Below, in pieces: positions 6,901 to 54,700 of a stretch of 64,000 nucleotides of DNA. This stretch comes from Owenia fusiformis (Eukaryota; Annelida; Polychaeta; Sabellida; Oweniidae), in contig CAIIXF020000006.1 of the NCBI GenBank assembly GCA_903813345.2, positions 11,476,348 to 11,540,347 of the forward strand, in the 5' to 3' direction. The translations under genes were made by a program, and so were the position numbers. Numbering within the stretch: position 1 is the stretch's first letter; every line of letters begins with the position of its first letter. The notes under the pieces are model-generated. The model was given only the letters and a program-made list of their open reading frames with translations. It did not search any database and was not told the DNA's origin.

Positions 6901-8240
6901 CAAAGGCTCACTTGGAGCATGTTTTGTAAAGAATTGTATTTCTTGACTCAATAGGTAAATTATCATCAAAATTCACACTAAATAGGCCAAATAATTTTCG
7001 GATTTCAAAGCAGAATATGCAAAATGACTGAGTTATTCAACTTTTCTTCAGTCCTGTTTTTGGACACCCTGTACAAATATGTATGTCAGGTATGTGACTG
7101 CTTTAAGAGATAAGAGGATCAGTCTTAAAATACTGCTGCCCCATCCTCCCTTAAATTTGGTTGCTTTGGCAACCTCTTAATCAACAGTAAACATGGGAAA
7201 TGATATCGTGCATAGGTTATCGTGTTACAACATCTAGTAATAAAAAATGAGATCATTTGGTAAGAAACTTTCTGATCGGGCCACGTAGATGTCAATATGT
7301 TTAGAAGAAAATATCTGTTATGATACCGCTATGCATCTAGTTATATAAATAGTGTTATTTTTTATGCAGTGAACCGTCTTAGGTTTGTTTTTGGAGACGT
7401 TTTCAGTGGAAGCACTGAAACTGTGAAGTCTGTCGTTGATATTACAATTGCCTACCTGCTTCACTATCCAGATGTACAGACGAAGGTAAAAACATTCCCG
7501 TAGTGGGTTTCTAAAATGGTGTTAGCGTTTCATATGACATAACACATATGGTCCCTGATTATTTTTGATTTTAGATACACGAGCAGATAGATGAGGAGAT
7601 AGGTAGAGACCGTCTTCCTACATTATCTGATAGGGAGAATCTGCGCTACGTGGAGGCCGTTTACTACGAGGTGATGCGCCTAAAGCCACCAGTCCCGCTC
7701 TCAGTTCCACATGTATGTACTGAAGACACCACTATCGCAGGATACGACATACCAAGTGGAACAATTGTTATGCCAAACATTTACGCTGCACATCGGGACC
7801 CAAACGTTTGGGCGAATCCGGAGAAATTTGACCCGAAGCGGTTCATTGATGAGAACGGACAATTCAAAGATCTTCACAGAATGATAGCGTTTTCTATGGG
7901 TGAGTAATGTGAGTTAAGAGAACATTACCCTTAACGGCATTCTCAAGAAACCAAAGTTTCACAAAAATTAAGGCAGCCATTTTGGATTTTCCATGTAGGC
8001 CGTCATATTATAACATGGTCCGAATGAGTATAAGTCACGTAATGCAAAATTATTTCAGGTAAACGAGTGTGTCCGGGTGAAGCTGTTGCTAGGATGAAGC
8101 TCTTTCTTTTATTCACTGCTCTTCTACAACGGTACAAGTTCTCAGTGCCCCCTGGTGTAGAATTACCTGACCTGAATTGTGAAGTGGGCTTGACACTAAC
8201 GCTTAAACGTTACAAGGTCTGCATTACTAGAAGATATTGA
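841..8240 (+). CDS. Cytochrome P450 (CYP2 clan), copy A, start exon outside window
   Basis: A heme-thiolate monooxygenase of the animal CYP2 clan, expected on the ER membrane and fed electrons by NADPH-P450 reductase; the substrate cannot be read from sequence. Coding exons are 841-917, 2930-3212, 4989-5216, 7370-7485, 7575-7899 and 8059-8240. All junctions are GT-AG with matching phases. Seen in the translation: ExxR in YYEVMRLKPP, FDPKRF at the PERF position, and the heme loop FSMGKRVCPGE. No stop or frameshift was found. Exons 3-7 are almost identical to copy B, so this duplication is recent. Intron 3 carries an extra foldback transposon absent from B. The exon with the membrane anchor must lie left of base 1. 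The exon 3 donor is ambiguous (after 3212 or 3233, both in phase). Confidence 0.88.
1704..2652. repeat. 41-45 bp minisatellite in P450 copy A intron 2
   Basis: About 22 head-to-tail units containing GGAGGGGAGTGTATTCCATA and CTTCCGGTTG. At least three unit types (full 45 bp, a 42-bp GAGGGGG type, a 41-bp type lacking GCC) alternate in blocks, showing multi-unit duplications. Copy B has about 9 units and copy C a single one. Long minus-strand ORFs here only reflect the repeat. Confidence 0.95.
2930..3212 (+). CDS. P450 copy A exon 3 (helices D-F region)
   Basis: Acceptor TATTTACAG. Encodes HFQMGTIKFENKIIEEI and then ANIINKILIGQRFDYDDE, the typical third exon of CYP2-clan genes. The end is set at a phase-1 donor GTATTA because exon 4 needs phase 1; GTAAAT after 3233 is an equally phased alternative. 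Confidence 0.8.
3270..4102. mobile_element. Foldback DNA transposon with 3-bp target duplication GTA
   Basis: An 833-bp near-palindrome with ends TCACAGGCTGGTATCGAAA and its reverse complement. It is flanked by GTA at 3267-3269 and 4103-4105; copy B has the empty site with a single GTA. Each arm is about 410 bp. The motif TTTGTCCGCTGTGACGGAGC occurs near the outer and the inner end of each arm, four times in all. No coding capacity is seen, so it is a non-autonomous element. One arm also occurs at 32195-32621. Confidence 0.9.
4161..4787. mobile_element. Foldback element in P450 copy A intron 3
   Basis: Ends AAGGTTCATGTGCAGTATGG and its inverse. The arms (about 4161-4330 and 4620-4787) pair over some 165 bp with divergence, separated by about 290 bp of unique sequence. 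It is present in copy B but absent from copy C, where the flanks nearly meet. The target duplication could not be settled. Confidence 0.75.
4989..5216 (+). CDS. P450 copy A exon 4
   Basis: Acceptor TGTTTTAG, donor GTAAGA, phase 1 on both sides. Encodes ILNIYPSLRFLPIDVFG, the helix F-G region with the conserved P-LRFLP motif, then a charged helix. Confidence 0.88.
6058..7071 (+). mobile_element. Decayed Tc1/mariner-superfamily transposon in P450 copy A intron 4
   Basis: The right end is TTTTTGGACACCCTG followed by TA. The left terminal repeat is missing compared with the copy C relative. Inside, three frames of + strand together give transposase-like motifs: GDRYAPEGV, WFQQDGA, TANDLLEWLEQY, LISRRGKRYGQLSH and PDFYPWGYL. 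These match the DDE transposase region around the second Asp and the PPDFYLWGYL motif. Several frameshifts and a nested insertion (6467-6741) show it is dead. Confidence 0.8.
6467..6741. mobile_element. 275-bp MITE nested in the dead transposase
   Basis: Terminal inverted repeats GTTCAACAAGTTAAACC, flanked by TA on both sides (6465-6466, 6742-6743). It splits the transposase reading frame between LSH and PDFYPWGYL. An internal hairpin pairs TTAAACCCA with TGGGTTTAA. Confidence 0.85.
7370..7485 (+). CDS. P450 copy A exon 5 (I-helix)
   Basis: Acceptor TTTTTTATGCAG, donor GTAAAA. Encodes FVFGDVFSGSTETVKSVVDI, then LLHYPDVQTK. SGSTETV stands where CYP2-clan enzymes usually show AGTETT; the acid-alcohol pair (Glu-Thr) is present. 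Confidence 0.92.
7575..7899 (+). CDS. P450 copy A exon 6 (ExxR and PERF region)
   Basis: Acceptor GATTTTAG, donor GTGAGT in phase 1. Holds the K-helix ExxR (EVMR) and FDPKRF. Ends inside the heme loop after FSMG. Confidence 0.95.
8059..8240 (+). CDS. P450 copy A exon 7 (heme cysteine)
   Basis: Acceptor TTATTTCAG. Begins KRVCPGEAVARMKLFLLF, with the heme-ligand Cys, and ends TRRY plus TGA. Confidence 0.95.
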
Positions 8241-10124: not shown

Positions 10125-10377
10125 TTACTTTCAAGTTTACTTACTTTCCAAATATGGTGTATTTTAGCTTTATTTACTTCCCGAATATGGTATATTTCAG
10201 CTTTACTTACTTCCCAAATATGGTGTATTTTAGCTTTACTAACGTCTTCCCAAATATATATAGTTCATCTTTACATACTTTCCAAATATGGTATATTTCA
10301 GCTTTACTTACTTCCCAAATATGGTGTACTTTAGCTTTACTTACTTCCCAAATATGGTGTATTCTAAATTTACTTAC
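10125..10377 (-). repeat. 33-bp array from the PPIL3 exon 5 end, copy A
   Basis: About 8 units. On - strand each unit is the last 17 nt of exon 5 plus 16 nt of intron 5, including a strong donor (GGGAA then GTAAGTAAAGC). The array lies directly downstream of the real exon 5 donor. Confidence 0.92.
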
Positions 10378-10496
10378 TTTCCAAAAATGGTGTATTTCAA
10401 ATCGAGAGACGTCTGCTTAGCATATGTTATGAAAAACTGAGAGCCATTTTTGTTGGAACCATTATTCGCCATGGAAACTATTCCTCGTTTATCATG
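10378..10496 (-). CDS. PPIL3: PPIL3 copy A exon 5
   Basis: Acceptor TTTTCAG, donor GTAAGTA in phase 2. Encodes [13 protein letters not shown] and [15 protein letters not shown] is the cyclophilin active-site segment. A Pro-to-Ser change (NGSN) is seen compared with the other copies. Confidence 0.9.
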
Positions 10497-13962: not shown

Positions 13963-16900
13963 ATAGTGAAGACCAAGAACATGTATTGAACATTAGTTAC
14001 CTGTTGGATCTCCTGTTTGGACCATAAATCCCTTGATGTTCCTATGGAAGAGAGATCCATAGTGAAGACCAAGAACATGTATTGAACATTAGTTACCTGT
14101 TGGATCTCCTGTTTGGACCATAAATCCCTTGATGTTCCTATGGAAGAAGGATCCATAGTGAAGACCAAGAACATGTATTGAACATTAGTTACCTGTTGGA
14201 TCTTCTGTTTGGACCATAAATCCCTTGATGTTCCAATGGAAGAAGGATCCATAGTGAAGACCAAGAACATGTATTGAACATTAGTTACCTGTTGAACATT
14301 AGTTACCTGTTGGATCTCCTGTTTGGACCATAAATCCCTTGATGTTCCTATGGAAGAGGGATCCATTGTGAAGACCAAGAACATGTATTGAACATTAGTT
14401 ACCTGTTGGGTCTCCTGTTTGGACCATCAATCCCTTGATGTTCCTATGGAAGAGAGATCCATAGTGAAGACCAAGAACATGTATTGAACATTAGTTACCT
14501 GTTGGATCTCCTGTTTGGACCATAAATCCCTTGATGTTCCATTGTTCCTATGGAAGAGGGATCCATAGTGAAGACCAAGAACATGTATTCAACATTAGTT
14601 ACCCGTTGGATCTCCTGTTTGGACCATAAATCCCTTGATGTTCCTATGAAAGAGGGATCCATAGTGAAGACCAAGAACATGTATTGAACATTAGTTACCT
14701 GTTGGATCTCCTGTTTGGGCCATAAATCCCTTGATGTTCCTATGGAAGAGGGATCCATAGTGAAGACCAAGAACATATATTCAACATTAGTTACCTGTTG
14801 GATCTCCTGTTTGGACCATAAATCCCTTGATGTTCATATGGAAGAGGGATCCATAGTGAAGACCAAGAACATGTATTCAACATTAGTTACCTGTTGGATC
14901 TCCTGTTTGGACCATAAATCCCTTGATGTTCCTATGGAAGAGAGATCCATAGTGAAGACCAAGAACATGTATTGAACATTAGTTACCTGTTGGATCTCCT
15001 GTTTGGACCATAAATCCCTTGATGTTCATATGGAAGAGGGATCCATAGTGAAGACCAAGAACATGTATTCAACATTAGTTACCTGTTGGATCTCCTGTTT
15101 GGACCATAAATCCCTTGATGTTCCTATGGAAGAGGGATCCATAGTGAAGACCAAGAACATGTATTCAACATTAGTTACCTGTTGGATCTCCTGTTTGGAC
15201 CATAAATCCCTTGATGTTCCCATGGAAGAGAGATTCATTGTGAAGACCAAGAACATGTATTGAACATTAGTTACCTGTTGGATCTCCTGTTTGGACCATA
15301 AATCCCTTGATGTTCCTATGGAAGAGAGATCCATAGTGAAGACCAAGAACATGTATTGAACATTAGTTACCTGTTGGATCTCCTGTTTGGACCATAAATC
15401 CCTTGATGTTCCTATGGAAGAGGGATCCATAGTGAAGACCAAGAACATGTATTCAACATTAGTTACCTGTTGGATCTCCTGTTTGGACCATAAATCCCTT
15501 GATGTTCCTATGGAAGAGGGATCCATAGTGAAGACCAAGAACATGTATTCAACATTAGTTACCTGTTGGATCTCCTGTTTGGACCATAAATCCCTTGATG
15601 TTCCTATGGAAGAGGGATCCATAGTGAAGACCAAGAACATGTATTCAACATTAGTTACCTGTTGGATCTCCTGTTTGGACCATAAATCCCTTGATGTTCC
15701 TATGGAAGAGGGATCCATAGTGAAGACCAAGAACATGTATTGAACATTAGTTACCTGTTGGATCTCCTGTTTGGAGCATAATTCCCTTGATGTTCATATG
15801 GAAGAGGGATCCATAGTGAAGACCAAGAACATGTATTCAACATTAGTTACCTGTTGGATCTCCTGTTTGGACCATAAATCCCTTGATGTTCCTATGGAAG
15901 AGGGATCCATAGTGAAGACCAAGAACATGTATTGAACATTAGTTACCTGTTGGATCTCCTGTTTGGACCATAAATCCCTTGATGTTCCTATGGAAGAGGG
16001 ATCCATAGTGAAGACCAAGAACATGTATTCAACATTAGTTACCTGTTGGATCTCCTGTTTGGACCATAAATCCCTTGATGTTCCTATGGAAGAGGGATCC
16101 ATAGTGAAGACCAAGAACATGTATTGAACATTAGTTACCTGTTGGATCTCCTGTTTGGACCATAAATCCCTTGATGTTCCTATGGAAGAGAGATCCATAG
16201 TGAAGACCAAGAACATGTATTCAACATTAGTTACCTGTTGGATCTCTTGTTTGAACCATAAATCCCTTGATGTTCCTATGGAAGAGGGATCCATAGTGAA
16301 GACCAAGAACATGTATTGAACATTAGTTACCTGTTGGATCTCCTGTTTGGACCATAAATCCCTTGATCTTCCTATGGAAGAGGGATCCATAGTGAAGACC
16401 AAGAACATGTATTCAACATTAGTTACCTGTTGGATCTCCTGTTTGGACCATAAATCCCTTGATGTTCCATAGTGAAGACCAAGAACATGTATTGAACATT
16501 AGTTACCTGTTGGATCTCCTGTTTGGAACATAAATCCCTTGATGTTCCTATGGAAGAGGGATCCATAGTGAAGACCAAGAACATGTATTGAACATTAGTT
16601 ACCTGTTGGATCTCCTGTTTGGACCATAAATCCCTTGATGTTCCTATGGAAGAGGGATCCATAGTGAAGACCAAGAACATGTATTCAACATTAGTTACCT
16701 GTTACATTAGTTACATGTTGGATCTCCTGTTTGGAGCATAATTCCCTTGATGTTCATATGGAAGAGGGATCCATAGTGAAGACCAATAACATGTATTCAA
16801 CATTAGTTACCTGTTGGATCTCCTGTTTGGACCATAAATCCCTTGATGTTCCTATGGAAGAGGGATCCATAGTGAAGACCAAGAACATGTATTGAACATT

Positions 16901-19268
16901 AGTTACCTGTTGGATCTCCTGTTTGGACCATAAATCCCTTGATGTTCCTATGGAAGAGGGATCCATAGTGAAGACCAAGAACATGTATTCAACATTAGTT
17001 ACCTGTTGGATCTCCTGTTTGGACCATAAATCCCTTGATGTTCCTATGGAAGAGGGATCCATAGTGAAGACCAAGAACATGTATTGAACATTAGTTACCT
17101 GTTGGATCTCCTGTTTGGACCATAAATCCCTTGATGTTCCTATGGAAGAGAGATCCATAGTGAAGACCAAGAACATGTATTCAACATTAGTTACCTGTTG
17201 GATCTCTTGTTTGAACCATAAATCCCTTGATGTTCCTATGGAAGAGGGATCCATAGTGAAGACCAAGAACATGTATTGAACATTAGTTACCTGTTGGATC
17301 TCCTGTTTGGACCATAAATCCCTTGATGTTCCTATGGAAGAGGGATCCATAGTGAAGACCAAGAACATGTATTGAACATTAGTTACCTGTTGGATCTCCT
17401 GTTTGGACCATAAATCCCTTGATGTTCCTATGGAAGAGGGATCCATAGTGAAGACCAAGAACATGTATTGAACATTAGTTACCTGTTGGATCTCCTGTTT
17501 GGACCATAAATCCCTTGATGTTCCTATGGAAGAGGGATCCATAGTGAAGACCAAGAACATGTATTCAACATTAGTTACCTGTTGGATCTCCTGTTTGGAC
17601 CATAAATCCCTTGATGTTCCTATGGAAGAGGGATCCATAGTGAAGACCAAGAACATGTATTGAACATTAGTTACCTGTTGGATCTCCTGTTTGAACCATA
17701 AATCCCTTGATGTTCCTATGGAAGAGGGATCCATAGTGAAGACCAAGAACATGTATTCAACATTAGTTACCTGTTGGATCTCCTGTTTGGACCATAAATC
17801 CCTTGATGTTCCTATGGAAGAGGGATCCATAGTGAAGACCAAGAACATGTATTCAACATTAGTTACCTGTTGGATCTCCTGTTTGGACCATAAATCCCTT
17901 GATGTTCCTATGGAAGAGGGATCCATAGTGAAGACCAAGAACATGTATTCAACATTAGTTACCTGTTGGATCTCCTGTTTGGACCATAAATCCCTTGATG
18001 TTCCTATGGAAGAGGGATCCATAGTGAAGACCAAGAACATGTATTCAACATTAGTTACCTGTTGGATCTCCTGTTTGGACCATAAATCCCTTGATGTTCC
18101 TATGGAAGAGGGATCCATAGTGAAGACCAAGAACATGTATTGAACATTAGTTACCTGTTGGATCTCCTGTTTGGACCATAAATCCCTTGATGTTTCTATG
18201 GAAGAGAGATCCATAGTGAAGACCAAGAACATGTATTCAACATTAGTTACCTGTTGGATCTCCTGTTTGAACCATAAATCCCTTGATGTTCCTATGGAAG
18301 AGGGATCCATAGTGAAGACCAAGAACATGTATTCAACATTAGTTACCTGTTGGATCTCCTGTTTGGACCATAAATCCCTTGATGTTCCTATGGAAGAGGG
18401 ATCCATAGTGAAGACCAAGAACATGTATTCAACATTAGTTACCTGTTGGATCTCCTGTTTGGACCATAAATCCCTTGATGTTCCTATGGAAGAGGGATCC
18501 ATAGTGAAGACCAAGAACATGTATTCAACATTAGTTACCTGTTGGATCTCCTGTTTGGACCATAAATCCCTTGATGTTCCTATGGAAGAGGGATCCATAG
18601 TGAAGACCAAGAACATGTATTCAACATTAGTTACCTGTTGGATCTCCTGTTTGGACCATAAATCCCTTGATGTTCCTATGGAAGAGGGATCCATAGTGAA
18701 GACCAAGAACATGTATTCAACATTAGTTACCTGTTGGATCTCCTGTTTGGACCATAAATCCCTTGATGTTCCTATGGAAGAGGGATCCATAGTGAAGACC
18801 AAGAACATGTATTCAACATTAGTTACCTGTTGGATCTCCTGTTTGGACCATAAATCCCTTGATGTTCCTATGGAAGAGGGATCCATAGTGAAGACCAAGA
18901 ACATGTATTCAACATTAGTTACCTGTTGGATCTCCTGTTTGGACCATAAATCCCTTGATGTTCCTATGGAAGAGGGATCCATAGTGAAGACCAAGAACAT
19001 GTATTGAACATTAGTTACCTGTTGGATCTCCTGTTTGGACCATAAATCCCTTGATGTTCCTATGGAAGAGGGATCCATAGTGAAGACCAAGAACATGTAT
19101 TGAACATTAGTTACCTGTTGGATCTCCTGTTTGGACCATAAATCCCTTGATGTTCCTATGGAAGAGGGATCCATAGTGAAGACCAAGAACATGTATTGAA
19201 CATTAGTTACCTGTTGGATCTCCTGTTTGGACCATAAATCCCTTGATGTTCCTATGGAAGAGGGATCC
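13963..19268 (-). repeat. 96-bp array from the PPIL3 exon 3 end, copy A (about 55 units)
   Basis: On - strand each unit is 58 nt of exon 3 (encoding [18 protein letters not shown]) followed by 38 nt of intron starting GTAACTAATG. The unit nearest exon 3 is the real exon end. At the other end the intron continues from CTTCACTAT into unique sequence, which shows the original junction. Units differ by few bases. Blocks of ten units (960 bp) are repeated. Since 96 is a multiple of 3, frames stay open for up to 844 codons, but in the PPIL3 frame each unit stops right after the donor (ACA GGT AAC TAA). Confidence 0.97.
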
Positions 19269-19304
19269 ATTGTAGTAATCACTGGCACATAGAGCTAAGA
19301 AGTT
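19211..19304 (-). CDS. PPIL3: PPIL3 copy A exon 3
   Basis: Acceptor TTTGTAG, donor GTAACT in phase 1. Encodes [31 protein letters not shown]. It carries the cyclophilin catalytic Arg and the FMxQxGD segment. It heads the 96-bp array. Confidence 0.92.
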
Positions 19305-21809: not shown

Positions 21810-21908
21810 TATTAACACAAAAACATGAGCTCAAACAACCTGGACACTGTTCAGATAATCTACTCTGTTAAAGTTAAGGTCAAGCCCGAGCTCAATAAGT
21901 AAACAAGA

Positions 21909-22236
21909 ATGGCGGTTCTATTAGCAATAGGTGTAATCGTTGTGCTGATGATTGCTGGGTATTTGGTGCTGAGACCCAGGCCTAACTTGCCCCCAGGACT
22001 TCCAGCACTCCCTGTGATAGGAAGCCTTCCTTGGCTAGACAGCAAGGATCCACTTGGACAACTCGTTAAGGTGCACAGACAATATGGCGATATCGTCACC
22101 ATCCACTTGGGCATGAAACCGTGTGTCTATCTTAACAGTTATGATGTCAACAAAGAAGCTCTTGTCACACAGAAGAAAAACTTTTCTGACAGACCTGACA
22201 TGTTCATCTTAGAAACAATGGGGACTACAAATAAAG
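21909..22236 (+). CDS. P450 copy B exon 1 (membrane anchor)
   Basis: Encodes MAVLLAIGVIVVLMIAGYLV, then the proline hinge and GDIVTIHLGMKPCVYLNSYD. Donor GTAATT in phase 1. Confidence 0.93.
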
Positions 22237-25200
22237 GTAATTGTGCATTGCGTTTCTCCATGTGTTTTCTCTTGGAGAATGGCTTCAGAAACTTTCAAGG
22301 AACTCAAATCACAACAAAATATTCGGCAAGTATTTACTAGTTCGATAATGAGGGAAATGGTTGTATTTAGGTCACCATATAAATCAATGGAGAGTAGGAC
22401 CATAATTTGATAAGACCTCCTACCCTTTTACACCGGTTTCAAAATTTTCAAAACTTAGAAATTAATTCTGCCACTGCTGGGATATTCCCAAATCAACTCC
22501 CTCGATTAGAAAACGAGGAAAGGAGTGGTATCGATATGGAGAACATTTTGAACACACGTTTCTCTTAAACCAGTCATAAAAAATTCTAAAAATTTAACAC
22601 ATCGTCAATTTAATGGTCATCTTTTGAATGGTAACAATATAATTTGAAAAAATATATATATACTTTCATTTATATTGTTTTAGAAAACACATTAAACACT
22701 TGTTTTGTTCTTGGTATCAACATGTTTAGGTCTCTCAATATTGTAATTGTACAAAGGAAATTTTGGTTGATTTAAAAAAAGTATCTTGTTAATGAAATAA
22801 AAGGTTTATCTTGATTTTTATCTATTTTGGGGGGATTTTGTTTTAATTTTTTGAATACTTTTTTAAAATCAACCAAACATTCCTTTGTATAACTATAATA
22901 TTGAGAGGTCTAAAAACATATGCTATTTTGTTCCAACAAGGTTCGGAAAGACATTTTATTTCATTCTCAAGAATTGGTAGAAAGGAGCAAAAACAACTGC
23001 ACTAAAAAAACAAAAATGTTAACTAAAACAGTAATATAAAATATTTCTAAATAATTTTCGCATTAAATTGTTGTCAATCAGTCAACATTACATAACCGTG
23101 TTTTTACAGAATGTTTTCAATGATTGGTTTAAGAGAAAAACATTGTTGAATTCAGTTCTCCATATCGATACCCCTCCCTTTTCTAATGAAATGTATTTTC
23201 CTGGTTTCTTTGAGAAAGTTAAAATTGCAGTATAAGTTCGGCTGAAAACTCTCTAAAAACGTCATTTCTATTATATATTTCAATATTTCATTATATTGTG
23301 AAATATTGAATCTTGGGCCTTCGGTCCTTTATTCGAATTGTACTATTATATTTCATGAGACGTCGAGTATCCCAGTTGAATTAGGTGTTCGGATAGTCCA
23401 GGCTACGAGTGTCCGTCTCCAGGTGGTATCAAGAAATATCAGGTTTTGTGCACGGTGTTTTCTGATACATCGAGTATTTTTTCAGGATACTTCCGTTAAC
23501 GTTCCATATTCACATAAAATACGGGGCAAACTAAATGATCAATACTTTTTCGGAGCGTTATACATTTTTATTTCATCCTTTTACATTTACCTTTCTAGGG
23601 GAACCAGGGTTCACATGCTCCAATGGTCACATCCAAACAGAAACCAGAAGCTTCATTAATAAATCTTTTATACAGGTAGGTCAAAGTCAACACTTTTTGC
23701 TATTTATTTTTCAAACGGTTTCTTATACATTCACCCCTAACCATAGACGACGTACAGTGACAAAATATACCGTTTTACACTTTCGATGTACGGTGTCACT
23801 ATAAAGGGACAACAAGGCCTTTAGAGAGAAAATAGGGAAATTTTTACTTTTTCTGAACTATCAGGGCAACATTTGGCTTAAAATCTTCTTTGACATACCT
23901 ATTTTCTTAAAATGAATAGATAAACTATCAATTTTAGCATTAAGAAGTGTAAATTCAGTTCAAAGCTTCTATAAAGGTAGTCCCACTTATAGATTTCTAG
24001 GATCCACCACGTTGAAGAGGAATATTAGCTGTTAAATAATGTTCATTTCTGGGGGTTTCTTTGGAAATAATAAAAATATATGTTAGTCTTGATGAACTAA
24101 CCAAACTTAAATGTATTTTGACGTTGGATGGAACCTCTCCACTACTTGTTGCACCTTTAACTGATTTGAAGCAAAAACTATGATGTAGGTTTGATATAGC
24201 TTTTAAAAAACTTCTCATAAAAATATTTGACACTCTTAGGCGACAGGGGAAAAATGATCAAAGGAAATCTTTTAACGTAATCAGAAAGCACTCGTAAGCA
24301 CTCGTCACTGTACGTTGTCGATGGTTAGGCGTGAAATTATCGACTATTTCGGTTAGACACATGAGACAAGAGGTCAGACAAACGGATTTTCTTCATATAT
24401 AATAGACTCCACACTCCCCTACAATAGTTTAGCAACCGGAAACTCTCTTTTAGTATGCTATCCAAGGAAAACTTCCGGTTGACAACTTTCTGGAGGGGAG
24501 TGTATTCCATATGAACTTCCGGGTGCCAACTTTCTGGAGGGGAGTGTATTCCATATGAACTTCCGGGTGCCAACTTTCTGGAGGGGAGTGTATTCCATAT
24601 GAACTTCCGGTTCACAACTTTCTGGAGGGGAGTGTATTCCATATGAACTTCCGGGTGCCAACTTTCTGGAGGGGAGTGTATTCCATATGAACTTCCGGTT
24701 GCCAACTTTCTGGAGGGAAGTGTATTCCATATGAACTTCCGGTTGACAACTTTCTGGAGGGAAGTGTATTCCATATGAACTTCCGGTTGCCAACTTTCTG
24801 GAGGGAAGTGTATTCCATATGAACTTCCGGTTGACAACCTTTTGAGGGGGTGTATTCCATATGAATTGACATACTGTACATTTTTATTAGTATGAGTGAT
24901 ACAAGTTCGTATAATTAACGTTCGTCGATCAATGCCTATTTCTCAAAAATGACAAAATGGTTACTCAAAATAGCGCCCATGAGCATTATTAAAGAGTGAA
25001 AACAAAATTAGCCTTAAATCAGCCTTCCAATTAAATGTTAAGTGCGATGTCATTTTTTATCGACAAGAAGTACTCTATAAACCATTTAAAGGGTAGTACT
25101 CAGGGCGTTCATCAATCATTATGACGGGGAAATTAACTATTTGTGTATTTGCAGCACTTTCAAATGGGAACAATCAAATTTGAAAATAAAATTATTGAAG

Positions 25201-28200
25201 AAATTCTAGTCCTTCTGGATGAATTGGATGAACATACTTCGAAATATGGCCCTGATGCTAACAGTGGTGACGCATACGCAGAGAATGGACAAACTGACGA
25301 GGGGATTGATTTGTTGATGCCTTTGACAAAGTGCACGGCTAATATCATTAACAAGATTCTAATAGGACAGAGATTTGATTATGATGATGAAATGTTCATG
25401 GAGAGAGTAAAACGTAATTACAGGAACTTATATACTAGTATTATTTCCAAGTATGCATGTAAATTATAGAGCGCAGTAATTACTGTACATAGTATAAGTG
25501 ACTCGATCAACATGTTGGACTATACCTGTCTCCATACATGAATATGTAAAAGGTTCATGTGCAGTATGGCAAGTGATTTTAGACAGTCATATCTTTCACC
25601 ATGTGTACTTTCTGGCCATCAATACAGTGGTTTTTATTAAAACAATATATTTTCTTTCAAGTGAAGTCCCCATGATAGTAAAATTTCATTCTAACTCTGA
25701 AAAATTATGGATTAAGTTTCTTCTACACTATTTTAATGATTTCTGAAAACGGAGTGCGTATTGAAATCCGTTAAAGTTAAAAACCACATATCCCATGTTA
25801 TTTTCCCATAGGGAAAAATCGTGCTATCCATTGTTTTCAGCATAATTTTGGTCATCGAAAATTGATATCTTCAAAACTTTCAATACCATTCTACTTTTGA
25901 AGAAGTTTTAGACCTCTTGTTGAATAATCTTTTCATGCAATAAAATCCAGAAAAAGAAGATCCTCTTTTGAGTAAATAGGTTCAACATTTTGAAAAAAAT
26001 GTTGACATGTTGACAAATTTTCGAATTGTTCGAATGATATTTTTATCATCATGGGTACTTTACTTGAAAGAAAACATATTGTTTTAATAAAAAACACTGT
26101 ATTTATGCCCTGAAAGTATTCATGGTTCAATATATGACTGTCTAAAATCACTTGCCATACTGCACATGAACCTTAACGTGCTCTTGGATGAAGAAATGAA
26201 ATTATGAAATTATGTCCTGTGCAAAAATTATATTTTTTAATTTCGAGGTGCAAAAACAGTCGTCGCATAAAAATTGTTGTGGGATGTGACAATTTCTAGA
26301 TAATCAAATTCACTCAAAAATTCTTATATACTTTTGATTTAAAAGGAAAGTGTCAGAAATGATTTTCTGTTTTAGTTTTTGAACAAGATATGCTATTTGT
26401 TCAGAAGGCCCAGATTCTGAACATATATCCATCGTTGCGCTTCCTTCCCATTGATGTCTTTGGCTTACAAGATTTTAAGCAGCACCAATTGCAAAACGAA
26501 CGATTTTGGGAGAAATTGATTAATGAAAATAAGGAAAAGGATAGTCTTATGAAACTGTGGATTCAGAAAACAAAAGAAAATTCCGGGAGTGACGTTTTCA
26601 ACAGTAAGATACATGTTTAAACATATATTTTCAGAAAAAAATATTTTTACAAATAGTATTCAATATTTAACTTCTATCTATGATGTATTTTAGGTTACTT
26701 TTAAAGTATAACAGTATCAGTCACCGTATTGAGGGTTCCATAATCGTATTGTTCGTCCGGGGAAAATAAATTCAAAATATAGAGCAAAGCTTACTAATCG
26801 AAACATTCATAACATCGATCGGCCTATATTCAGCTTAATAGTCATGCCTGAATACGAGGCCCGATCAAAAAGTTTCTTATCAAATGCTCTCATTTTTGTT
26901 TTGTTTTGGCCGTAAGATGACATAAATCATGTTTTAATTGATTAAAATTTACACAAAATATAGAGTTTATGTATTCGAAATCAGGGAGAGTGGAGCAACT
27001 GTTTCACTTTCTGTATTAAGGTTGATTTGATACGTATATATGTAAGGGGCATATGAAGACTCATTACATGCCGTAGTGCCTTCAAAATAATTTCTTCCGA
27101 ATGAAATACACTTCCTGCATCTACCTGTCTACTGACATGATATTTCAATACATGAAGGAGCTATGTCATTAGAATCAGGTATTTTGTTGAGTTGCTTTTA
27201 AAGTCTTCGATTATTGATTTCTTGTCGTCAACGCTCAATCCACGGAGAGGCTTTATTGTCTCATGAAACAAATAGTAACCACATGATGCAAGCATGTCAC
27301 TCATGAACATATTCACGAGACACGACCCATTTAAATACATTCTGTATTTTCTGTAGTGTATGCGTATTTTACACAAAATTGAATGTCTATACGCTGTTTT
27401 ACTCTTATAAGTAGATTGTTTCACTCATTTTAGAAATTAGCCATGAACAAATTTGCTGAATTGAATCCGGCGAACAAAGAACTTTGTTGATGACCCTCCT
27501 ACACAGATTTCTTTTTGAATTGACAAATTGATTTCAAGGAAAGTTGCTACTGGAGCTTACATCCTCATGAAGTGTTACAGTGTCCATTGCATTTTTAAAA
27601 ATGCCCTGCCTGGGTTGCAATAAGCAAACATGGAATCATGTCTTGCTATCACAAGGACAAGCAGACCGTTATATTCAAATTCTTATAAGCTTTGGAGATC
27701 GCTATGCACCAGAAGGGGTATTCAAAGAGATAGGCAATGGTTTTAACAAGACGGTGCCATCTCTTCGACACTGCAAATGATTTGCTGGAATGGCTTGAGC
27801 AATATGCTTTAGTAGTCAGCTCATCAGTCGCAGAGGCAAAAGATATGGGCAGCTCAGTCACTAGTTCAAGACAAGTTAAACCCAATACCACGGCTTTCAT
27901 TTATAATCTGAGTGTTCTTGTTGCCATGGTTGGGTTTAACTTCCGTGCTATGCTTTCATTGGTTGCAAATTCTCACGATCAGTTATTAATAAAACGCGCA
28001 TAGAATTCAATGCGCTGCCATAGGCCATCATTAAAATATTTTGCATCAAGGGCCGAATAGGCACGGATGTTAAACCTAGGGCGGGCCACAAGAAATGTCA
28101 GATAAGAAACAAGGCCCAGACTAGGTTTAACTTGTTGAACTACTCAGTTACAAGATCTCAATCCCCCAGATTTTTATCCGTGGGGATATCTCAATGTGTA

Positions 28201-32626: not shown

Positions 32627-33304
32627 AAGCTTTACTTACTAAACAAATATGGTGCATTTTAGCTTTACTTACTTCCCAAATATGGTGTATTTTAGCTTTG
32701 CTTACTTCCCAAATATGGTGCATTTTGGCTTCACCTTCTTCCCAAATATGGTGTATTTTAGCTTTATTTCCTTCCCAAATATGGTGTATTTTAGCTTTAC
32801 TTATATAACTTCCCAAATATGGTGTATTTTAGCTTAACTTCCTTCCCAAATATGGTGTATTTTAGCTTTACTTCCTTCCCAAATATGGTGTATTTTAGCT
32901 TTACTTCCTTCTCAAATATGGTGTATTTTAGCTTTACTTACTTTCCAAATATGGTGTATTTTAGCTTTATTTACTTCCCAAATATGGTGTATTTTAGCTT
33001 TACTTACTTTCCAAATATGGTGCATTTTAGCTTTATTTACTTCCCAAATATGGTATATTTCAGCTTTATTTACTTCCCAAATATGGTGTATTTTAGCTTT
33101 ACTTACTTCCCAAATATGATCTAGTTCATTTTTACTTACTTTCCAAATATGGTGTATTTCAGCTTTACTTACTTCCCAAATATGGTGTACTTTAGCTTCA
33201 GATACTTCCCAAATATGGTGTATTCTCGAATTACTTACTTCCCAAATGTGGTGTACTTTAGCTTTACTTACTTCCCAAATATGGTGTATTCTAGATTTAC
33301 TTAC
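32627..33304 (-). repeat. 33-bp array from the PPIL3 exon 5 end, copy B (about 20 units)
   Basis: The longest of the three arrays. On - strand each unit brings ATTTGGGAA followed by GTAAGTAAAGC, i.e. the exon 5 end with its donor. Some units differ at single bases. Unit length divisible by 3 explains the open frames here. Confidence 0.95.
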
Positions 33305-33423
33305 TTCCCAAATATGGTGTATTTCAAATCAAGAGATGTCTGCTTAGCATATGTTATGAAAAACTGAGAGCCATTTTTGTTGGGACCATTATTTGCCATG
33401 GAAACTATTCCTCGTTTATCATG
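33305..33423 (-). CDS. PPIL3: PPIL3 copy B exon 5
   Basis: [28 protein letters not shown], donor GTAAGT. Intact. Confidence 0.9.
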
Positions 33424-36643: not shown

Positions 36644-38775
36644 ATAGTGAAGACCTGGTAAGAACATGTATTGAACATTAGTTACCTGTTGGATCTCCTG
36701 TTTGGACCATAAATCCCTTGATGTTCCTATAAAAGAGGGATCCATAGTGAAGACCAAGAACATGTATTCAACATTAGTTACCTGTTGGATCTCCTGTTTG
36801 GGCCATAAATCCCTTGATGTTCCTATGAAAGAGGGATCTATAGTGAAGACCAAGAACATGTATTGAACATTAGTTACCTGTTGGATCTCCTGTTTGGACC
36901 ATAAATCCCTTGATGTTCCTATAAAAGAGGGATCCATAGTGAAGACCAAGAACATGTATTCAACATTAGTTACCTGTTGGATCTCCTGTTTGGACCATAA
37001 ATCCCTTGATGTTCCTATGAAAGAGGGATCTATAGTGAAGACCAAGAACATGTATTGAACATTAGTTACCTGTTGGATCTCCTGTTTGGACCATAAATCC
37101 CTTGATGTTCCTATGAAAGAGGGATCTATAGTGAAGACCAAGAACATGTATTGAACATTAGTTACCTGTTGGATCTCCTGTTTGGACCATAAATCCCTTG
37201 ATGTTCCTATGGAAGAGGGATCCATATTGAAGACCAAGAACATGTATTGAACATTAGTTACCTGTTGGATCTCCTGTTTGAACCATAAATCCCTTGATGT
37301 TCCTATAAAAGAGGGATCCATAGTGAAGACCAAGAACATGTATTGAACATTAGTTACCTGTTGGATCTCCTGTTTGAACCATAAATCCCTTGATGTTCCT
37401 ATAAAAGAGGGATCCATAGTGAAGACCAAGAACATGTATTGAACATTAGTTACCTGTTGGATCTCCTGTTTGGACCATAAATCCCTTGATGTTCCTATGG
37501 AAGAGAGATCCATATTGAAGACCAAGAACACGTATTGAACATTAGTTACCTGTTGGATCTCCTGTTTGGACCATAAATCCCTTGATGTTCCTATGAAAGA
37601 GGGATCCATAGTGAAGACCTGGTAAGAACATGTATTGAACATTAGTTACCTGTTGGATCTCCTGTTTGGACCATAAATCCCTTGATGTTCCTATGGAAGA
37701 GGGATCCATAGTGAAGACCAAGAACATGTATTGAACATTAGTTACCTGTTGGATCTCCTGTTTGGACCATAAATCCCTTGATGTTCCTATGAAAGAGGGA
37801 TCCATAGTGAAGACCTGGTAAGAACATGTATTGAACATTAGTTACCTGTTGGATCTCCTATTTGGACCATAAATCCCTTGATGTTCCTATGAAAGAGGGA
37901 TCCATAGTGAAGACCTGGTAAGAACATGTATTGAACATTAGTTACCTGTTGGATCTCCTGTTTGGACCATAAATCCCTTGATGTTCCTATGAAAGAGGGA
38001 TCCATAGTGAAGACCTGGTAAGAACATGTATTGAACATTAGTTACCTGTTGGATCTCCTGTTTGGACCATAAATCCCTTGATGTTCCTATAAAAGAGGGA
38101 TCCATAGTGAAGACCAAGAACATGTATTGAACATTAGTTACCTGTTGGATCTCCTGTTTGGACCATAAATCCCTTGATGTTCCTATGGAAGAGGGATCCA
38201 TATTGAAGACCAAGAACATGTATTGAACATTAGTTACCTGTTGGATCTCCTGTTTGGACCATAAATCCCTTGATGTTCCTATGGAAGAGGGATCCATAGT
38301 GAAGACCAAGAACATGTATTGAACATTAGTTACCTGTTGGATCTCCTGTTTGGACCATAAATCCCTTGATGTTCCTATGGAAGAGGGATCCATTGTGAAG
38401 ACCAAGAACATGTATTGAACATTAGTTACCTGTTGGATCTCCTGTTTGGACCATAAATCCCTTGATGTTCCTATGGAAGAGGAATCCATAGTGAAGACCA
38501 AGAACATGTATTCAACATTAGTTACCTGTTGTATCTCCTGTTTGGACCATAAATCCCTTGATGTTCCTATGGAAGAGGGATCCATAGTGAAGACCAAGAA
38601 CATGTATTCAACATTAGTTACCTGTTGGATCTCCTGTTTGGACCATAAATCCCTTGATGTTCCTATGGAAGAGGGATCCATTGTGAAGACCAAGAACATG
38701 TATTGAACATTAGTTACCTGTTGGATCTCCTGTTTGGACCATAAATCCCTTGATGTTCCTATGGAAGAGGGATCC
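36644..38775 (-). repeat. 96-bp array from the PPIL3 exon 3 end, copy B (about 22 units)
   Basis: Same unit as in copy A. Five units at the low-coordinate side carry an extra TGGT that gives TTCTTACCAG on - strand, a 3' splice site just before the exon piece. Those units are 100 bp. A Phe-for-Ser-type change in the shifted frame marks this block as a local expansion. Confidence 0.96.
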
Positions 38776-38811
38776 ATTGTAGTAATCACTGGCACAAAGA
38801 GCTAAGAAGTT
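38718..38811 (-). CDS. PPIL3: PPIL3 copy B exon 3
   Basis: Same protein as copy A exon 3; acceptor TTTGTAG and donor GTAACT intact. Confidence 0.9.
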
Positions 38812-39095
38812 CTACAAATTAACGAAATACAAATACAAATAATAATCTATCAATCTTACATTCATGTAACACCATTATAATAACAAATATGTATATACAT
38901 GTACTACAAAATCCCCAAAATCTGTATGTGAGTAACCACACTGTTAATCAATAGGGTCATGCTGGGAATAAAACCAACTGGAATGGCAACTCCATTGTGT
39001 AACTATATTATTGTAGTATATTCTTTTGGTACATTGTTAATTCGTTATGTCTCATTTTGTTAAAATAACAAATCTCATGTTGCATTGTTGAACTA

Positions 39096-41300: not shown

Positions 41301-41400
41301 TTATTAACACAAAAACATGAGCTCAAACAACCTGGACACTGTCCAGATAATCTACTCTGTTAAAGTTAAGGTCAAGCCCGAGCTCAATAAGTAAACAAGT

Positions 41401-41728
41401 ATGGCGGTGCTATTAGCAATAGGTGTAATCGTTGTGCTGATGATTGCTGGGTATTTGGTGCTGAGACCCAGGCCTAACTTGCCCCCAGGACTTCCAGCAC
41501 TCCCTGTGATAGGAAGCCTTCCTTGGCTAGACAGCAAGGATCCACTTGGACAACTCGTCAAGATGCACAGACAATATGGCGATGTCATCACCATCCACTT
41601 GGGCATGAAACCGTGTGTCTATCTTAACAGTTATGATGTCAACAAAGAAGCACTTGTCACACAGAAGAAAAACTTTTCTGACAGACCACACATGTTCATC
41701 TTAGATACAATGCTGACTACACATAAAG
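41401..41728 (+). CDS. P450 copy C exon 1
   Basis: Same anchor and hinge as B; differs in GDVITIHLGM, RPHMFILDTMLTT. Donor GTAATT intact. Confidence 0.88.
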
Positions 41729-42307
41729 GTAATTTTGCATTGCGTTTCTCCATTTGTTTTCTCTTGGAGAATGGCTTCAGAAACTTTCAAGAGAAATATC
41801 GAAATGCCCAGGGGGGAAGATTGCCCAAAGATGACCTTGAGCATTGGCACGTTCGATAACCAATTTTATAAACAGGTCTCATTTGCCATTGAAATCTACC
41901 TCAGAGCAAGTTTGGATCGGGTAGAAATAATACTAATAGAGAGGTTTCGATATGCGTTTTTTGGAGTACGTATACGCAAACCTGTACTTGTGCAAGTCAG
42001 GTATAGCACTGGAAGGAACTCAAATCACAACAAAATATTCGGCAAGTATGTTATGTTCGTGAGTTCCGGTTTCAAAATATTATTACAACTTAAAAATTAA
42101 TTCTGCCACTGCTGGGATATTCACAAATCAATCCCCTCGATTAGGAAACGAGGAAAAATTTTCCAATGAAATGTTATTTCCTGGTTTCTTTGAGAAAGTT
42201 AAAGTTGCAGTATAAGTTCGACTTAAAACTTATACCGAAAACGTTCTAACGTAATTTCTGCGGGCAATATTGTGAAATATTGAATCTTGGGCCTTCGGTC
42301 CAATATT

Positions 42308-43902: not shown

Positions 43903-43955
43903 CATTTCCAAGTATGCATGTAAATTATAGAGCGCAGTAATTACTGTACATAGTA

Positions 43956-48664: not shown

Positions 48665-48791
48665 TCACCCTGCTATAGGGTTAGCATGTATGGTGATGTC
48701 TCTAATTCTGATTTCATTCAAAGGTCTGTAGCTTTTCTCATTTACTGGCTGTTTTTCTAATTCGTCTAATGTGTCAAAGCCATCAATAACT
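48665..48791 (-). CDS. PPIL3: PPIL3 copy C exon 6 (last)
   Basis: Acceptor CTTTCAG in phase 2; ends HANPIAG and TGA. Confidence 0.92.
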
Positions 48792-51700
48792 CTGAAAGAA
48801 AAATACTTAATTATTAACTCATTTGGGAATTTATTTCCATTATCATCTCCAGACTAGCAATCTGAATATTCAAATTTTAAGTTCATAAAGATTTTCACAT
48901 AACATTTATTATTTTGATCTAATTTTTCTTGGCTAGTTGTAAATGCTGTTTCCAATTTTGTCAGCCCTCTTTGAGAGAATTGACCTTTTGTAAATACTTA
49001 CTAAACAGATATGGTGCAATAGCTTTACTTCCTTCCCAAATATGGTGTATTTTAGCTTTACTTACTTCCCAAATATGGTATATTTCAGCTTTACTTACTT
49101 CCCAAATATGGTGTATTTTAGCTTTATTTACTTCCCGAATATGGTATACAGTATTTCAGCTTTACTTACTTCCCAAATATGGTGTATTTTAGCTTTACTT
49201 ACTTCCCAAATATGGTATATTTCAGCTTTACTTATTTCCCAAATATGGTGTACTTTTGCTTTACTAACTTCCCAAATATGGTGTATTCGAGAATTACTTA
49301 CTTCCCAAAAATGGTGTATTTCAAATCGAGAGACGTCTGCTTAGCATATGTTATAAAAAACTGAGAGCCATTTTTGTTGGGACCATTATTCGCCATGGAA
49401 ACTATTCCTCTTTTATCATGCTGAAAAGAGAAGAGAAAATATTAAAATAAAATAAAGTAACAGACGCTTGAAATGTTCATTGTACTGTTGGTAATTCAAG
49501 TAAGTCAAACTAGACAACAGCAATGCCAAAGCGTAGCAAATCAAATCGAACAGCCATGGCCATTTACAGTTTTACATATTGCACCTAAATTACTGTAAAA
49601 TCGGACGTTGGACGGATGGACAGATGGACGGACAGAGGGACGGATGGAGGCGTTCCCTATATCCCTCCGAACTTTGTTCGATGGGATAACAATGACATCA
49701 AAATAAGGAACTTATAGTTGTCCAAACTTTAATATTTGATATGCATGCACCTTGTGTGTGATTTTACAAATAAAATTCATCTGTAGAATTTTATGTTAAA
49801 CTTTACATGCATGTTTATAATTTTAACTCTTCTATACCTTCACCATAACATCCCTCCATTGCACTTTGGATACAGCCAAAGTAAATACCATCTACTTGCA
49901 TAGGAACTCTTTAAATATCTAGTCCCTTAATCAATTTCTATTCCAAGCTGAGCATGAACCATGTAAGCTTTGAAGTATCAAAGGCCAAAATACAAAAAGG
50001 TATCAAAACTGTTCATAAAAAGTTTTGGACAAATTATATTTGTTAATAAAGTGACGCTACGCTACATAACAGAACTTCACTGACATGATCCTACCTTCAA
50101 ATTGTCATCAAATTCATCATCAAACTTTTTGCCATAGATACTGTCTCCTCCTTTACCAGTGCCTGAAATGTAATATAATATCATAAATAAAATGGCAACA
50201 CTTCAACGATCATGTGTTACACATACATGTATATCGTATTAGAATGTATATCTAATTGTTTGGCAGTACCTGTGGAAAGTTACAAACGGGATACTAACTT
50301 TTTAAATGAAATACAAAGACCTCGATTTTATGATTTATGTCAAATATATGACTTCAAATTTTATTCTGGCCATTTAACAATGAACAGAATGAAATTCTCT
50401 GTCATTTATTACGCCATAAATCATAAAATCTCAGTCTCAATTCCTTAAACAAATGATTGTGTGGACAAATTATCATTTAAATGGTAAAATGTAATTTTTC
50501 GATTATTTAGCTTTGATCATCAATTATCATTAATTCCTCAATATGGATCTTTCTATTTTGAACTCAAATGAGAATCAGATCTTGCGAGCAAGAAAACAAA
50601 AAATTGTTTCAATTTCAGATTGCTTTTACTACTTTATACATATACAGGGTGGGCCAAAAAATTTTGCAACTTTTTTATAAGGCTAGAAAAGTATCATAAC
50701 ATGGATGTATTGACATAAAAATTGATTTACAGAAAGTTTAGGATAGGCATATTTTACTATTCAAATATCTAAGCTTATACTGAGTTCTAATTTTTTTGAC
50801 AGTTCTTTGAATATCTATGGTAAATTGTTCATATGTCCAGGATTTACTGTTTTTCCAAGAAAATTTGACTTTTTATGATTTTATGTGATCAACAATAACA
50901 CATTCATTATGTTCACTGAATCTGCTACAATCTTGGATAACTGTTTATTCAATATCTAGGACAGTTTTATATTAGTATCTACTCACAATGGTATTATGTT
51001 ATACTGTATCTATAAAACTATTATTAATCATATGTTATTACATCCACCTTTCACCTTCACTATCGCTCCCAGCCATCGGGCAAGGGTTGCTTTGGAATAT
51101 CTGGAGGAAGATATCTCTAGATTTATTAGTCCTGATGAATTGCTGCCCAATACACCAGATGCCAACCCCTGTGACTATCACACATGGAGGCACCTGGAGC
51201 AGTTTATTGCAATTAATGGTAATCCATACACAAACTATTTAACAACTAAAAAAGGTTCTGCAGGAGAAATGGAAACTACCGCAAGAATCGCTGAATGGCG
51301 CCATTGCAGTTCCGCCCTCGTGTCTGTGTGATAGTGAAGATGAAGGCGGATGCATGGAACATTTTTAAATATATAATTAATAGATACAGTATAACATAAT
51401 ACCTTAGTAAGTAGATACAGATATAAAACTGTACTAGCCATTGCTTAAACAAATATCAAAGATTGTAGCAGATTTAGTGAACATAATGAATGTGTTACTG
51501 TTGATCACATAATATCATGAAAAGTCACATTTTCTTGGAAAAACAGTAAATCTCGGACACATGAACAATTCACCATTGATATTCAAAGAACTGTCAAAAA
51601 AAATTAGAAGTCAGTATTAGCTTAGATATTTGAATGATAAAATATGCCTATCCTAAACTTTCTGTAAATCAATTTTTATGTCAATACCTTCATGTTATGA

Positions 51701-54700
51701 TACTTTTCTAGCCTTTTAAAAAAGTTGCAAAATTTTTTGGCCCACCCTGTATTATCAATAGTATGTCATATCTGCCTATTTCTTTAGATACTTTTGTCAA
51801 ATTTGATTCAGGGTATTCTGTGTCAGAGCATACCTACACTGAAATTGAGATATCTCTTAATTTCTAAGTTATTCATGCTATGCAAGCTGCAGCATACCAA
51901 TCTTTTTTCAATTGAACACTCTATCTGAACGTAAAAAATCATGAAGATTCTTTAATTCTTGAGAGAGTTATTCCAAAATTAGTGGGTGGTATTTTTGTGT
52001 CACCTTGTATTTGAGATCATAAGGAATGAATTAGTAGACCAATTGTACATGTTGCAGTTTTGTCATCCTATAGATCTGAATCTGCATTTACTATGTATCA
52101 TATAGGAAAACCCACTTTACAAAATATTGAATGTTCGCGACTCCCATAGTCTGATAGTGAAGACCAAGAACATGTATTGAACATTAGTTACCTGTTGGAT
52201 CTCCTGTTTGGACCATAAATCCCTTGATGTTCCTATGGAAGAGGGATCCATAGTGAAGACCAAGACGTGTATTCATCATTAGTTACCTGTCGGATCTCCT
52301 GTTTGGAACATAAATCCCTTGATGTTCCTATGGAAGAGGGATCCATTGTGAAGACCAAGAACATGTATTGAACATTAGTTACCTGTTGGATCTCCTGTTT
52401 GGACCATAAATCCCTTGATGTTCCTATGGAAGAGAGATCCATAGTGAAGACCAAGAACATGTATTGAACATTAGTTACCTGTTGGATCTCCTGTTTGGAC
52501 CATAAATCCCTTGATGTTCCTATGGAAGAGAGATCCATAGTGAAGACCAAGAACATGTATTGAACATTAGTTACCTGTTGGATCTCCTGTTTGGACCATA
52601 AATCCCTTAATGTTCCTATGGAAGAGGGATCCATAGTGAAGACCAAGAACATGTATTGAACATTAGTTACCTGTTGGATCTCCTGTTTGGACCATAAATC
52701 CCTTGATGTTCCTATGGAAGAGAGATCCATAGTGAAGACCAAGAACATGTATTGAACATTAGTTACCTGTTGGATCTCCTGTTTGGACCATAAATCCCTT
52801 GATGTTCCTATGGAAGAGAGATCCATTGTGAAGACCAAGAACATGTATTGAACATTAGTTACCTGTTGGATCTCCTGTTTGGACCATAAATCCCTTGATG
52901 TTCCTATGAAAGAGGGATCCATTGTGAAGACCAAGAACATGTATTGAACATTAGTTACCTGTTGGATCTCCTGTTTGGACCATAAATCCCTTGATGTTCC
53001 TATGGAAGAGAGATCCATTGTGAAGACCAAGAACATGTATTGAACATTAGTTACCTGTTGGATCTCCTGTTTGGACCATAAATCCCTTGATGTTCCTATG
53101 GAAGAGAGATCCATAGTGAAGACCAAGAACATGTATTGAACATTAGTTACCTGTTGGATCTCCTGTTTGGACCATAAATCCCTTGATGTTCCTATGGTAG
53201 AGAGATCCATAGTGAAGACCAAGAACATGTATTGAACATTAGTTACCTGTTGAACATTAGTTACCTGTTGGATCTCCTGTTTGGACCATAAATCCCTTGA
53301 TGTTCCTATGGAAGACGGATCCATAGTGAAGACCAAGAACATGTATTGAACATTAGTTACCTGTTGGATCTCCTGTTTGGACCATAAATCCCTTGATGTT
53401 CCTATGGAAGAGGGATCCATTGTAGTAATCACTGGCACATAGAGCTAAGAAGTTCTACAAATTAACGAAATACAAAATATAGTACATGCATCTAATCTAT
53501 CAATCTTACATTCATGTAACACCATTTCAATAACAAATATGTACATCCTATGAACACATAAAAAAATCCCCAAAATCTGTATGGGAGTAACCACACTGTT
53601 AATCAATAGGGTCATGCTGGGAATATAACCAACTGCAATGGCAACTCCATCATGTAACTATATTATTGTAGTATATTCTACTGGTACATAATGTTAATTC
53701 GTTATGTCTCATTTTGTTAAAATAACAAGTCCCATGTTGCATCGTTGAACTACTATGTCACATCTTGTCACAGTTGTTGTTACTGTAATTTGTAACTCCA
53801 TACCTATATAATTGTGAAGACATTTTCTTACCAAAATCTATCATTGGAAATATAACCTTTTAAGAATCTACAAATTAATTAATTAATTACTGTAGATATA
53901 CTTATTTTGACGCTACTTAATTTGATGGATTTGCTCAGTTTCAAATATTGGTGGCTCTTCAATTTGGAGGATTTAATCTGATGTTTACGAAGATATTTTC
54001 TGCATTTCTTTGGAATAATGTAGAATTGATGACATGTTGAGAGAAAAAGGGGCACCTTTAATTTCTGAAGTGCATTGCATAAAAATTCCAAACTGAAATT
54101 TGACGGATTTTTAATTTAACGGAGTTTCTGAATCAGCCAATCAGTCAAATTAAAACAGGAGCCAAATTAAGTGTATCTACAGTATGTAGCTGATGTAGGC
54201 ATATACACATGCTTGAATTATTTGAGACAGACATGGAACAGTGGGAGACATGAGGTACCATTCCCATTGTGTCTAATGTAGGGTAACACCATATGTAATT
54301 GAATATAGGATAACACCATATAATCTCCAAAGTAGTGATCATGTCAACTGTAGAGTAACTCTTGATATGGCCATATAAGATCACAGAGTAACACCTTAAA
54401 TACTGTATGGTCATGTCAAATGAAGGGCATATTGTAACTTACCTCAGATGCTCTTGGGATTTGATCACAGAAGACTTCAATCTTTATGTCTCCCACATCA
54501 GTGTGCAGTGTCACCGACTGAAATAAAAACGCTACACATCAATATGCAGTGATACAGAGTAAAACTTGGGACTTCATGGGGCAACTCAACGAGGTTCATG
54601 AGACTGGATGGGATATGGTTGGACTCAATTAGTTCAACGTCGTTAAACTCAATAACGGCATTCTTTACTATTAGGGATTTTCTTGGGGCCGTTATTGAAA

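Follow-up and report, generated by a model that had tools for sequence, protein, structure and literature searches.

In the annelid Owenia fusiformis the 3' end of exon 3 of PPIL3, a cyclophilin gene, is repeated together with its 5' splice site as a 96-bp tandem array that lies within the gene itself. The window, by which we mean the whole stretch of 64,000 nucleotides that was analysed (GenBank assembly GCA_903813345.2, contig CAIIXF020000006.1, positions 11,476,348 to 11,540,347; coordinates below count from its first letter), carries three partial or complete PPIL3 copies on its minus strand, here designated A, B and C, and in each of them the array sits in intron 3, right after the true donor. 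Every unit joins the last 58 nt of exon 3 (GGATCC...CCAACAG) to 38 nt from the start of intron 3, which begins with GTAACT. An earlier sequence-only reading of the same DNA had described this structure and proposed that the array descends from this exon and its donor; the description is correct to the base, the descent is supported, and the GTAACT donor is invariant in 90/90 units. We consider it highly probable that this is a minisatellite of the type described in lancelets as 'mirages', a tolerated and neutral by-product of tandem duplication in which the first donor is the one used, and not a device.

Exact decomposition of the minus strand gives 55 head-to-tail units in copy A, 22 in copy B and 13 in copy C, 90 in total, bearing out the earlier estimates of about 55, 22 and 13. 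Tandem Repeats Finder (TRF) agrees, reporting a period of 96 with 55.0 (13963-19270), 21.9 (36660-38777) and 13.0 (52154-53420) copies. By decomposition the arrays of A (13963..19268) and B (36644..38775) lie inside 5'-truncated PPIL3 fragments, and that of C (52154..53418) lies inside a copy with open exons 2-6. Most units keep the 96-bp length: 51 in A, where the rest measure 112, 80, 104 and 114 bp; 17 in B, the other five being 100 bp long; and 11 in C, the rest being 114 and 95 bp. The additional length in the five copy B units (37608-38103 and 36644-36743) is an ACCA insert, which creates TTACCAGGTCTTC, a possible additional AG|GT. The string GTAACTAATG occurs 57 times in A, 22 times in B and 14 times in C (93 in total), and in copy C an 18-nt duplication in unit C02 supplies an extra donor, giving 14 donors from 13 units.

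The edges of the array are equally well defined. Its 5' junction, TACTACAAT|GGATCC, and its 3' junction, CTTCACTAT|CAGACT, are each identical across copies A, B and C, and the dinucleotide AT is common to both break points, much as the sequence-only reading had described for the two parental junctions. This identity makes a single origin of the array, preceding the duplication of the gene, the most likely history. We also searched the 498 Mb genome with the 96-bp unit; the search scores best candidates only, so that its match counts are lower bounds, and 90/90 reported matches fall inside the window. The array is a local minisatellite and not a dispersed satellite. The word 'satellite', which had been applied to it, does not suit what is one locus in the search made, and a dispersed satellite unrelated by descent to exon 3, which had been named among the findings that would refute the reading, did not appear among the matches reported.

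The identity of the host gene and the state of its copies were established from their exons. When the copy C exons were joined, with a start methionine added by hand, and compared with PDB chains by phmmer, the protein matched human PPIL3 (1xyh) over residues 1-160 with an E-value of 6.8e-88, and its Pfam match to Pro_isomerase had an E-value of 2.8e-51; related chains such as CWC27 appear in the PDB-chain match list under the name 'spliceosomal protein'. On searching the window with human PPIL3, exon 2 was detected in copy C only (54443..54517, 25 residues, donor gtaagt). From there exons 2-6 of copy C join in frame and are open, comprising exon 3 (53361..53454), which contributes its final 58 nt to unit C01 as the exonic portion and has its true donor GT at 53360-53359, exon 4 (50095..50162, donor gtagga), exon 5 (49302..49420, ending GGGAA|GTAAGT) and the coding part of exon 6 with its stop (48665..48791), all on the minus strand. 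The exon 3 regions of copies A (19209..19304) and B (38716..38812) lie on the same strand with no exon 2 found upstream, and the similarity of these copies to C ends within intron 2, near 19605 in A and 39105 in B. Exon 4 has lost its donor in A, where GT has become GG (ggagga after 11317), and is truncated and frameshifted in B near 34046-33963. Outside the window no place in the genome exceeded 57% identity to the PPIL3 protein (111 matches, all 124 candidates scored), so copy C is likely the sole working PPIL3 detected. The earlier proposal that the spliceosome meets dozens of equal donors is not supported for a working gene: the 57- and 22-donor arrays lie in A and B, the copies in which exon 2 was not found and exon 4 is damaged, and the open-frame copy C has 14.

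A second array of the same construction was found at another splice donor of the gene. The boundary of exon 5 (GGGAA|GTAAGT) is also repeated in copies A, B and C, as 33-bp units made up of the exon 5 end (LKYTIFGK) and GTAAGT, and TRF together with the sequence places these minus-strand arrays at 49020..49321 in copy C, 32628..33324 in copy B (21 units) and 10136..10399 in copy A (about 8 units). The donors of this array are decaying: an exact GTAAGT is present only 10 times in the 21-unit stretch of B and 6 times in C. Both arrays share one layout, in that each donor of the 96-bp array is directly followed by an in-frame TAA (ACA GGT AAC TAA) and GTAAGT in the exon 5 array is likewise followed by an in-frame TAA, so that splicing at any later donor would terminate translation.

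Variation among the 96-bp units was computed on 86/90 of them, units A29, A30, A49 and A50 having been dropped as misaligned. Mean pairwise difference is 0.020 within A, 0.027 within B and 0.025 within C, and 0.028, 0.026 and 0.031 for the comparisons A-B, A-C and B-C, respectively. We found 27 distinct exonic variants, of which 7 are synonymous, 20 nonsynonymous and none a stop, against 38:128:5 possible changes of these three kinds, proportions that give no sign of coding constraint on the units. Units A32-A37 nearly echo A22-A27, which points to block duplication. Constraint on the donor was also considered; given that 64/96 sites and 15/91 six-site windows are invariant, the invariance of the donor is weak evidence for it, and such constraint is unsupported beyond the expectation from the invariant sites.

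Arrays that cross splice sites are present at other genes as well. Three AGGTRAGT words with gaps of 20-50 gave 1056 genome matches (529 for the reversed pattern), a permuted-word control gave 280 (271 reversed), and gaps of 51-81 gave 1024 against 692 reversed; these counts are rows and not arrays, are dominated by long arrays, and have known places for the first listed matches only. By eye, 7 arrays for AGGTRAGT at gaps 20-50 and about 18 for the permuted word were recognised among the matches listed. The total numbers of arrays of the two words may be similar, and in view of these tallies and the several hundred control rows we claim no enrichment of donors in arrays. Six donor-motif loci, those among the matches listed and all on contig C1, were inspected, and at 4/6 an apparent exon, its frame staying open further upstream of the array, ends as the first unit, the other two being unclear. 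One such array lies at an apparent Muted exon (52-bp unit, 29 donors, Pfam E 5.9e-15) and one at a tetraspanin-like exon (54-bp unit, 17 donors, Pfam E 0.016, below the Pfam cut-off), and two of the four have no family match. A 67-bp array at C1:13516457-13517804 has donor-like words on both strands.

As a less selective survey, we ran TRF on 68 pieces (77,918 bases) holding 80 internal exon matches of the Ras family, and checked every array against the targets with 40 nt of flank; the targets were hand-picked from the matches listed, as a part of the eligible ones, and whole-domain and domain-end matches were left out. Clear acceptor-spanning arrays were seen at 2/80 targeted exons. The array on C7 has seven 65-bp units (three in piece L078, four in L090), the last of which runs into the exon APMYYRNANAALLVYDIT, and that on C11 has 41-bp units with a few exonic bases each. 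The next exon of the C7 gene is a possible weak case (1/80), being preceded by an old 18/36-bp array that has ~8 exonic bases per unit. At the donor side 1/80 exons, a C12 exon ending NRIL(G) in L075, carries a two-copy 20-bp duplication across its donor. One more acceptor array, with 2.8 copies of a 113-bp unit, lies at a Ras exon inside L075 that had not been targeted. The remaining overlaps with the target zones (L045, L052, L063 and L066) are repeats in flanking intron, the sequence having been read for L045 only. Boundary duplications occur at two different splice sites in each of the Ras genes of L075 (C12) and L078 (C7), as they do in PPIL3.

When the protein matches were scanned by eye for tandem exons, no other close cluster was seen among the matches listed (111 for PPIL3 and 154 for Ras, the latter with the best 150 of 302 candidates scored), and this approach is insensitive, the acceptor arrays found by the DNA survey having escaped it. 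At an Adh3-like locus we found intronic tandem repeats, none of them seen on an exon boundary in an inspection that did not go exon by exon. In the long intron of this class III Adh-like gene one set of tandem repeats recurs at a distance of about 5 kb (L004 2334-4408 and 7307-9382), suggesting an internal 5-kb duplication. With two sites affected in each of the L075 and L078 Ras genes and in PPIL3, splice-site arrays may cluster in some genes. That the PPIL3 array is derived from the active-site exon of a spliceosomal protein gene, which the sequence-only reading had singled out as without known precedent, seems incidental, given the similar arrays at apparent Muted, tetraspanin-like and Ras-family exons.

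How the PPIL3 copies came to lie where they do is best seen from their neighbours. Self-comparison of the window reveals a threefold segmental similarity, and P450 exons lie within these units on the plus strand, in the form of open frames resembling exons of three tandem P450 copies (2912-3244, 7575-7907, 21903-22340, 25137-25469, 28918-29250, 41395-41859, 43612-43923 and 46825-47157; Pfam p450 for two sampled peptides). On the simplest reading, tandem duplication of a P450 gene took in the ends of its neighbours as well, and copies A and B appear to be 5'-truncated, damaged fragments of PPIL3 carried along as passengers. Directly observed are the anatomy of the units, their single locus and common boundaries, the truncated copies, the absence of any sign of coding constraint and the arrays at other splice sites; we infer the following order of events. 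A 96-bp segment across the boundary between exon 3 and intron 3, with 38 nt on its intronic side, would have been tandemly duplicated between two AT dinucleotides, and unequal exchange or slippage would then have enlarged the array, before the segmental duplication. Tandem duplication of the P450 gene along with the neighbouring 3' portion of PPIL3 would subsequently have produced copies A and B. Splicing in copy C would use the acceptor of exon 3 and, among the donors, the authentic first one, the remainder of the array being removed at the 5' end of intron 3, and any use of a later donor would run into the in-frame TAA and yield a truncated RNA product that is probably degraded. The array is presumably neutral.

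Several points weigh against this account of a neutral array in a working gene. A simple ATG|GT search of the 3.4 kb upstream did not find the start-codon exon of copy C, which is thus not proven complete, and the choice of donor in this copy is deduced from its sequence. Array length in the assembly could be affected by the assembly process. The mean fraction of minor variants, with the misaligned units dropped, gives a mixed picture, being.0112 in exonic and.0144 in intronic sites of A,.0196 and.0120 in B, and.0159 and.0142 in C, and when the one common intronic polymorphism at site 71 is set aside the intron shows less variation than the exon in A, B and C alike. GTAACT also lies within the longest invariant run (sites 55-68) and is unvaried in 90 units, which could hint at constraint.

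It is with such a hint that a regulatory array would agree, in which the frequency of mis-splicing of intron 3 to TAA-containing RNA would depend on how many downstream donors there are, array length thereby tuning PPIL3 output. The GTAACT donor and the immediate in-frame TAA are kept in every unit, the exon 5 array repeats the layout with GTAAGT and then TAA, and PPIL3 is presumably itself a component of the spliceosome. We nevertheless hold this to be improbable, as many donors have been lost in the exon 5 array, the largest arrays are located in the damaged fragments A and B, comparable arrays are present at acceptors as well as at exons of genes unrelated to PPIL3, and the exonic part of the units shows no sign of constraint. 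Still less probable is recursive or stepwise splicing, by which the units would be removed as 96-nt mini-introns (GT...CAG|GT), each step regenerating the exon end and a donor and making the array self-correcting. The units do end in CCAACAG|GTAACT, and joining of a donor to this CAG would restore the exon end; but no good polypyrimidine tract precedes CCAACAG, and 96 nt is short by the standard of most animal introns.

Near-identical units are hard to assemble and the array lengths differ among the paralogs, as would be expected had the assembler expanded the repeats, yet we give such an artefact only a slight chance, for the boundaries are common to three loci whose variant patterns are distinct (the ACCA insert is confined to B, and the A22-A27/A32-A37 echo is seen in A), and arrays with other units are present at other genes. 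The least credible explanation is a dispersed satellite that resembles exon 3 by chance: nothing was found in its favour, 90/90 reported matches lie inside the window, and both edges of the array run on into exon and intron. A more serious, though still doubtful, proposal concerns the lineage as a whole, namely that an active process in this annelid lineage preferentially seeds arrays across donors and acceptors of many genes, independently of lancelets, and that these might serve as reservoirs of spare splice sites for new exons and introns. We continue to favour the neutral minisatellite for PPIL3.

A few further features of the duplicated segment deserve mention. A signal-peptide-like exon, MKAVVLLTLFALCFALVASGRR, lies on the minus strand from 19700 and from 39200, upstream of the truncated PPIL3 fragments A and B, and is found again on the minus strand to the left of the window, at L007:6878; its donor is of phase 2 and the exon 3 acceptor of phase 0, so that a fusion of the two would be out of frame. 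A 44-bp array is present at 1705-2653 in the A unit and 24470-24865 in the B unit, and in the C unit TRF reports none, with one unit-like stretch near 43284. Finally, an 833-bp stretch at 3270-4102 is self-complementary at 87%, and is possibly an inverted-repeat mobile element. In the genome at large, three places pass the Pfam cut-off for the annelid erythrocruorin linker domain; one exon peptide of 63 aa has an E-value of 5.2e-10, and its nearest PDB chains by name are hemoglobin linkers (best E 0.0025), which makes amphioxus unlikely as the source of the DNA. Searches for GFP and COX1 found no match, that for GFP being uninformative since its control gave none.

The sequence-only reading knew of no precedent for such an array, but closely related systems have been published. 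In the portions of the papers covered here, lancelet globin genes are described as having minisatellite-like duplications of intron/exon boundaries on both intron sides, the 'mirages', which are also cited for Adh3, TnC and PGBD5 (PMC3087553, PMC3902484); their units measure 10-160 bp, and regular splicing is reported to proceed undisturbed by them (PMC3087553). In humans, genes that lie in segmental duplications also carry boundary-located tandem repeats, from which introns can arise (PMC2812944), and gain of introns by tandem duplication of AGGT segments, the Rogers model, is discussed with ATP2A1 and fission yeast as cases (PMC4974935). For annelids, a literature search from whose coverage most subscription journals fell outside found no report of splice-site-spanning arrays, and the passages covered of a study of earthworm metallothionein describe intronic minisatellites, with nothing on units that span splice sites (PMC12783039).

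That arrays occur at several annelid genes, at donors as well as acceptors, suggests that splice-junction minisatellites are a general and tolerated product of tandem duplication, and that boundary arrays may be a recurrent mode of gene change in this annelid genome. They also provide natural test cases for site choice by the spliceosome and for models of intron gain, with 14 near-identical donors in one intron of PPIL3 and seven acceptors before a Ras-family exon.

By their structure the PPIL3 arrays belong with the mirages: they span a real exon/intron boundary, and their units (96 and 33 bp) are of minisatellite size and contain splice signals. The copy numbers of 55, 22 and 13 are those of paralogs in one assembly and not of alleles. 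As far as the covered text of the lancelet papers goes, mirage units likewise cross the boundary and mostly keep their splice signals, on donor and acceptor sides; the copy number of mirages varies. The PPIL3 arrays, known here from genomic sequence alone, differ in their annelid host, in reaching 55 units where two BflGb6 haplotypes have 6 and 3, and in occupying two separate donors within a single gene. The human boundary repeats resemble them as minisatellites at exon-intron boundaries of recently duplicated genes, but average four units of 30 bp and are tied to altered transcripts, whereas the PPIL3 arrays are larger (PMC2812944, in the parts covered). With the AGGT model, as presented in the passages covered, the PPIL3 unit shares a duplicated AG|GT segment that could provide splice sites of both kinds, 5' and 3'; however, the segment in PPIL3 already holds a real donor, and there is no evidence of a new intron (PMC4974935). 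What is known, then, is the mirage structure itself, from lancelets, and what appears new is the annelid host, the size of the arrays, their presence at several genes, and the occurrence of two of them in a single gene.

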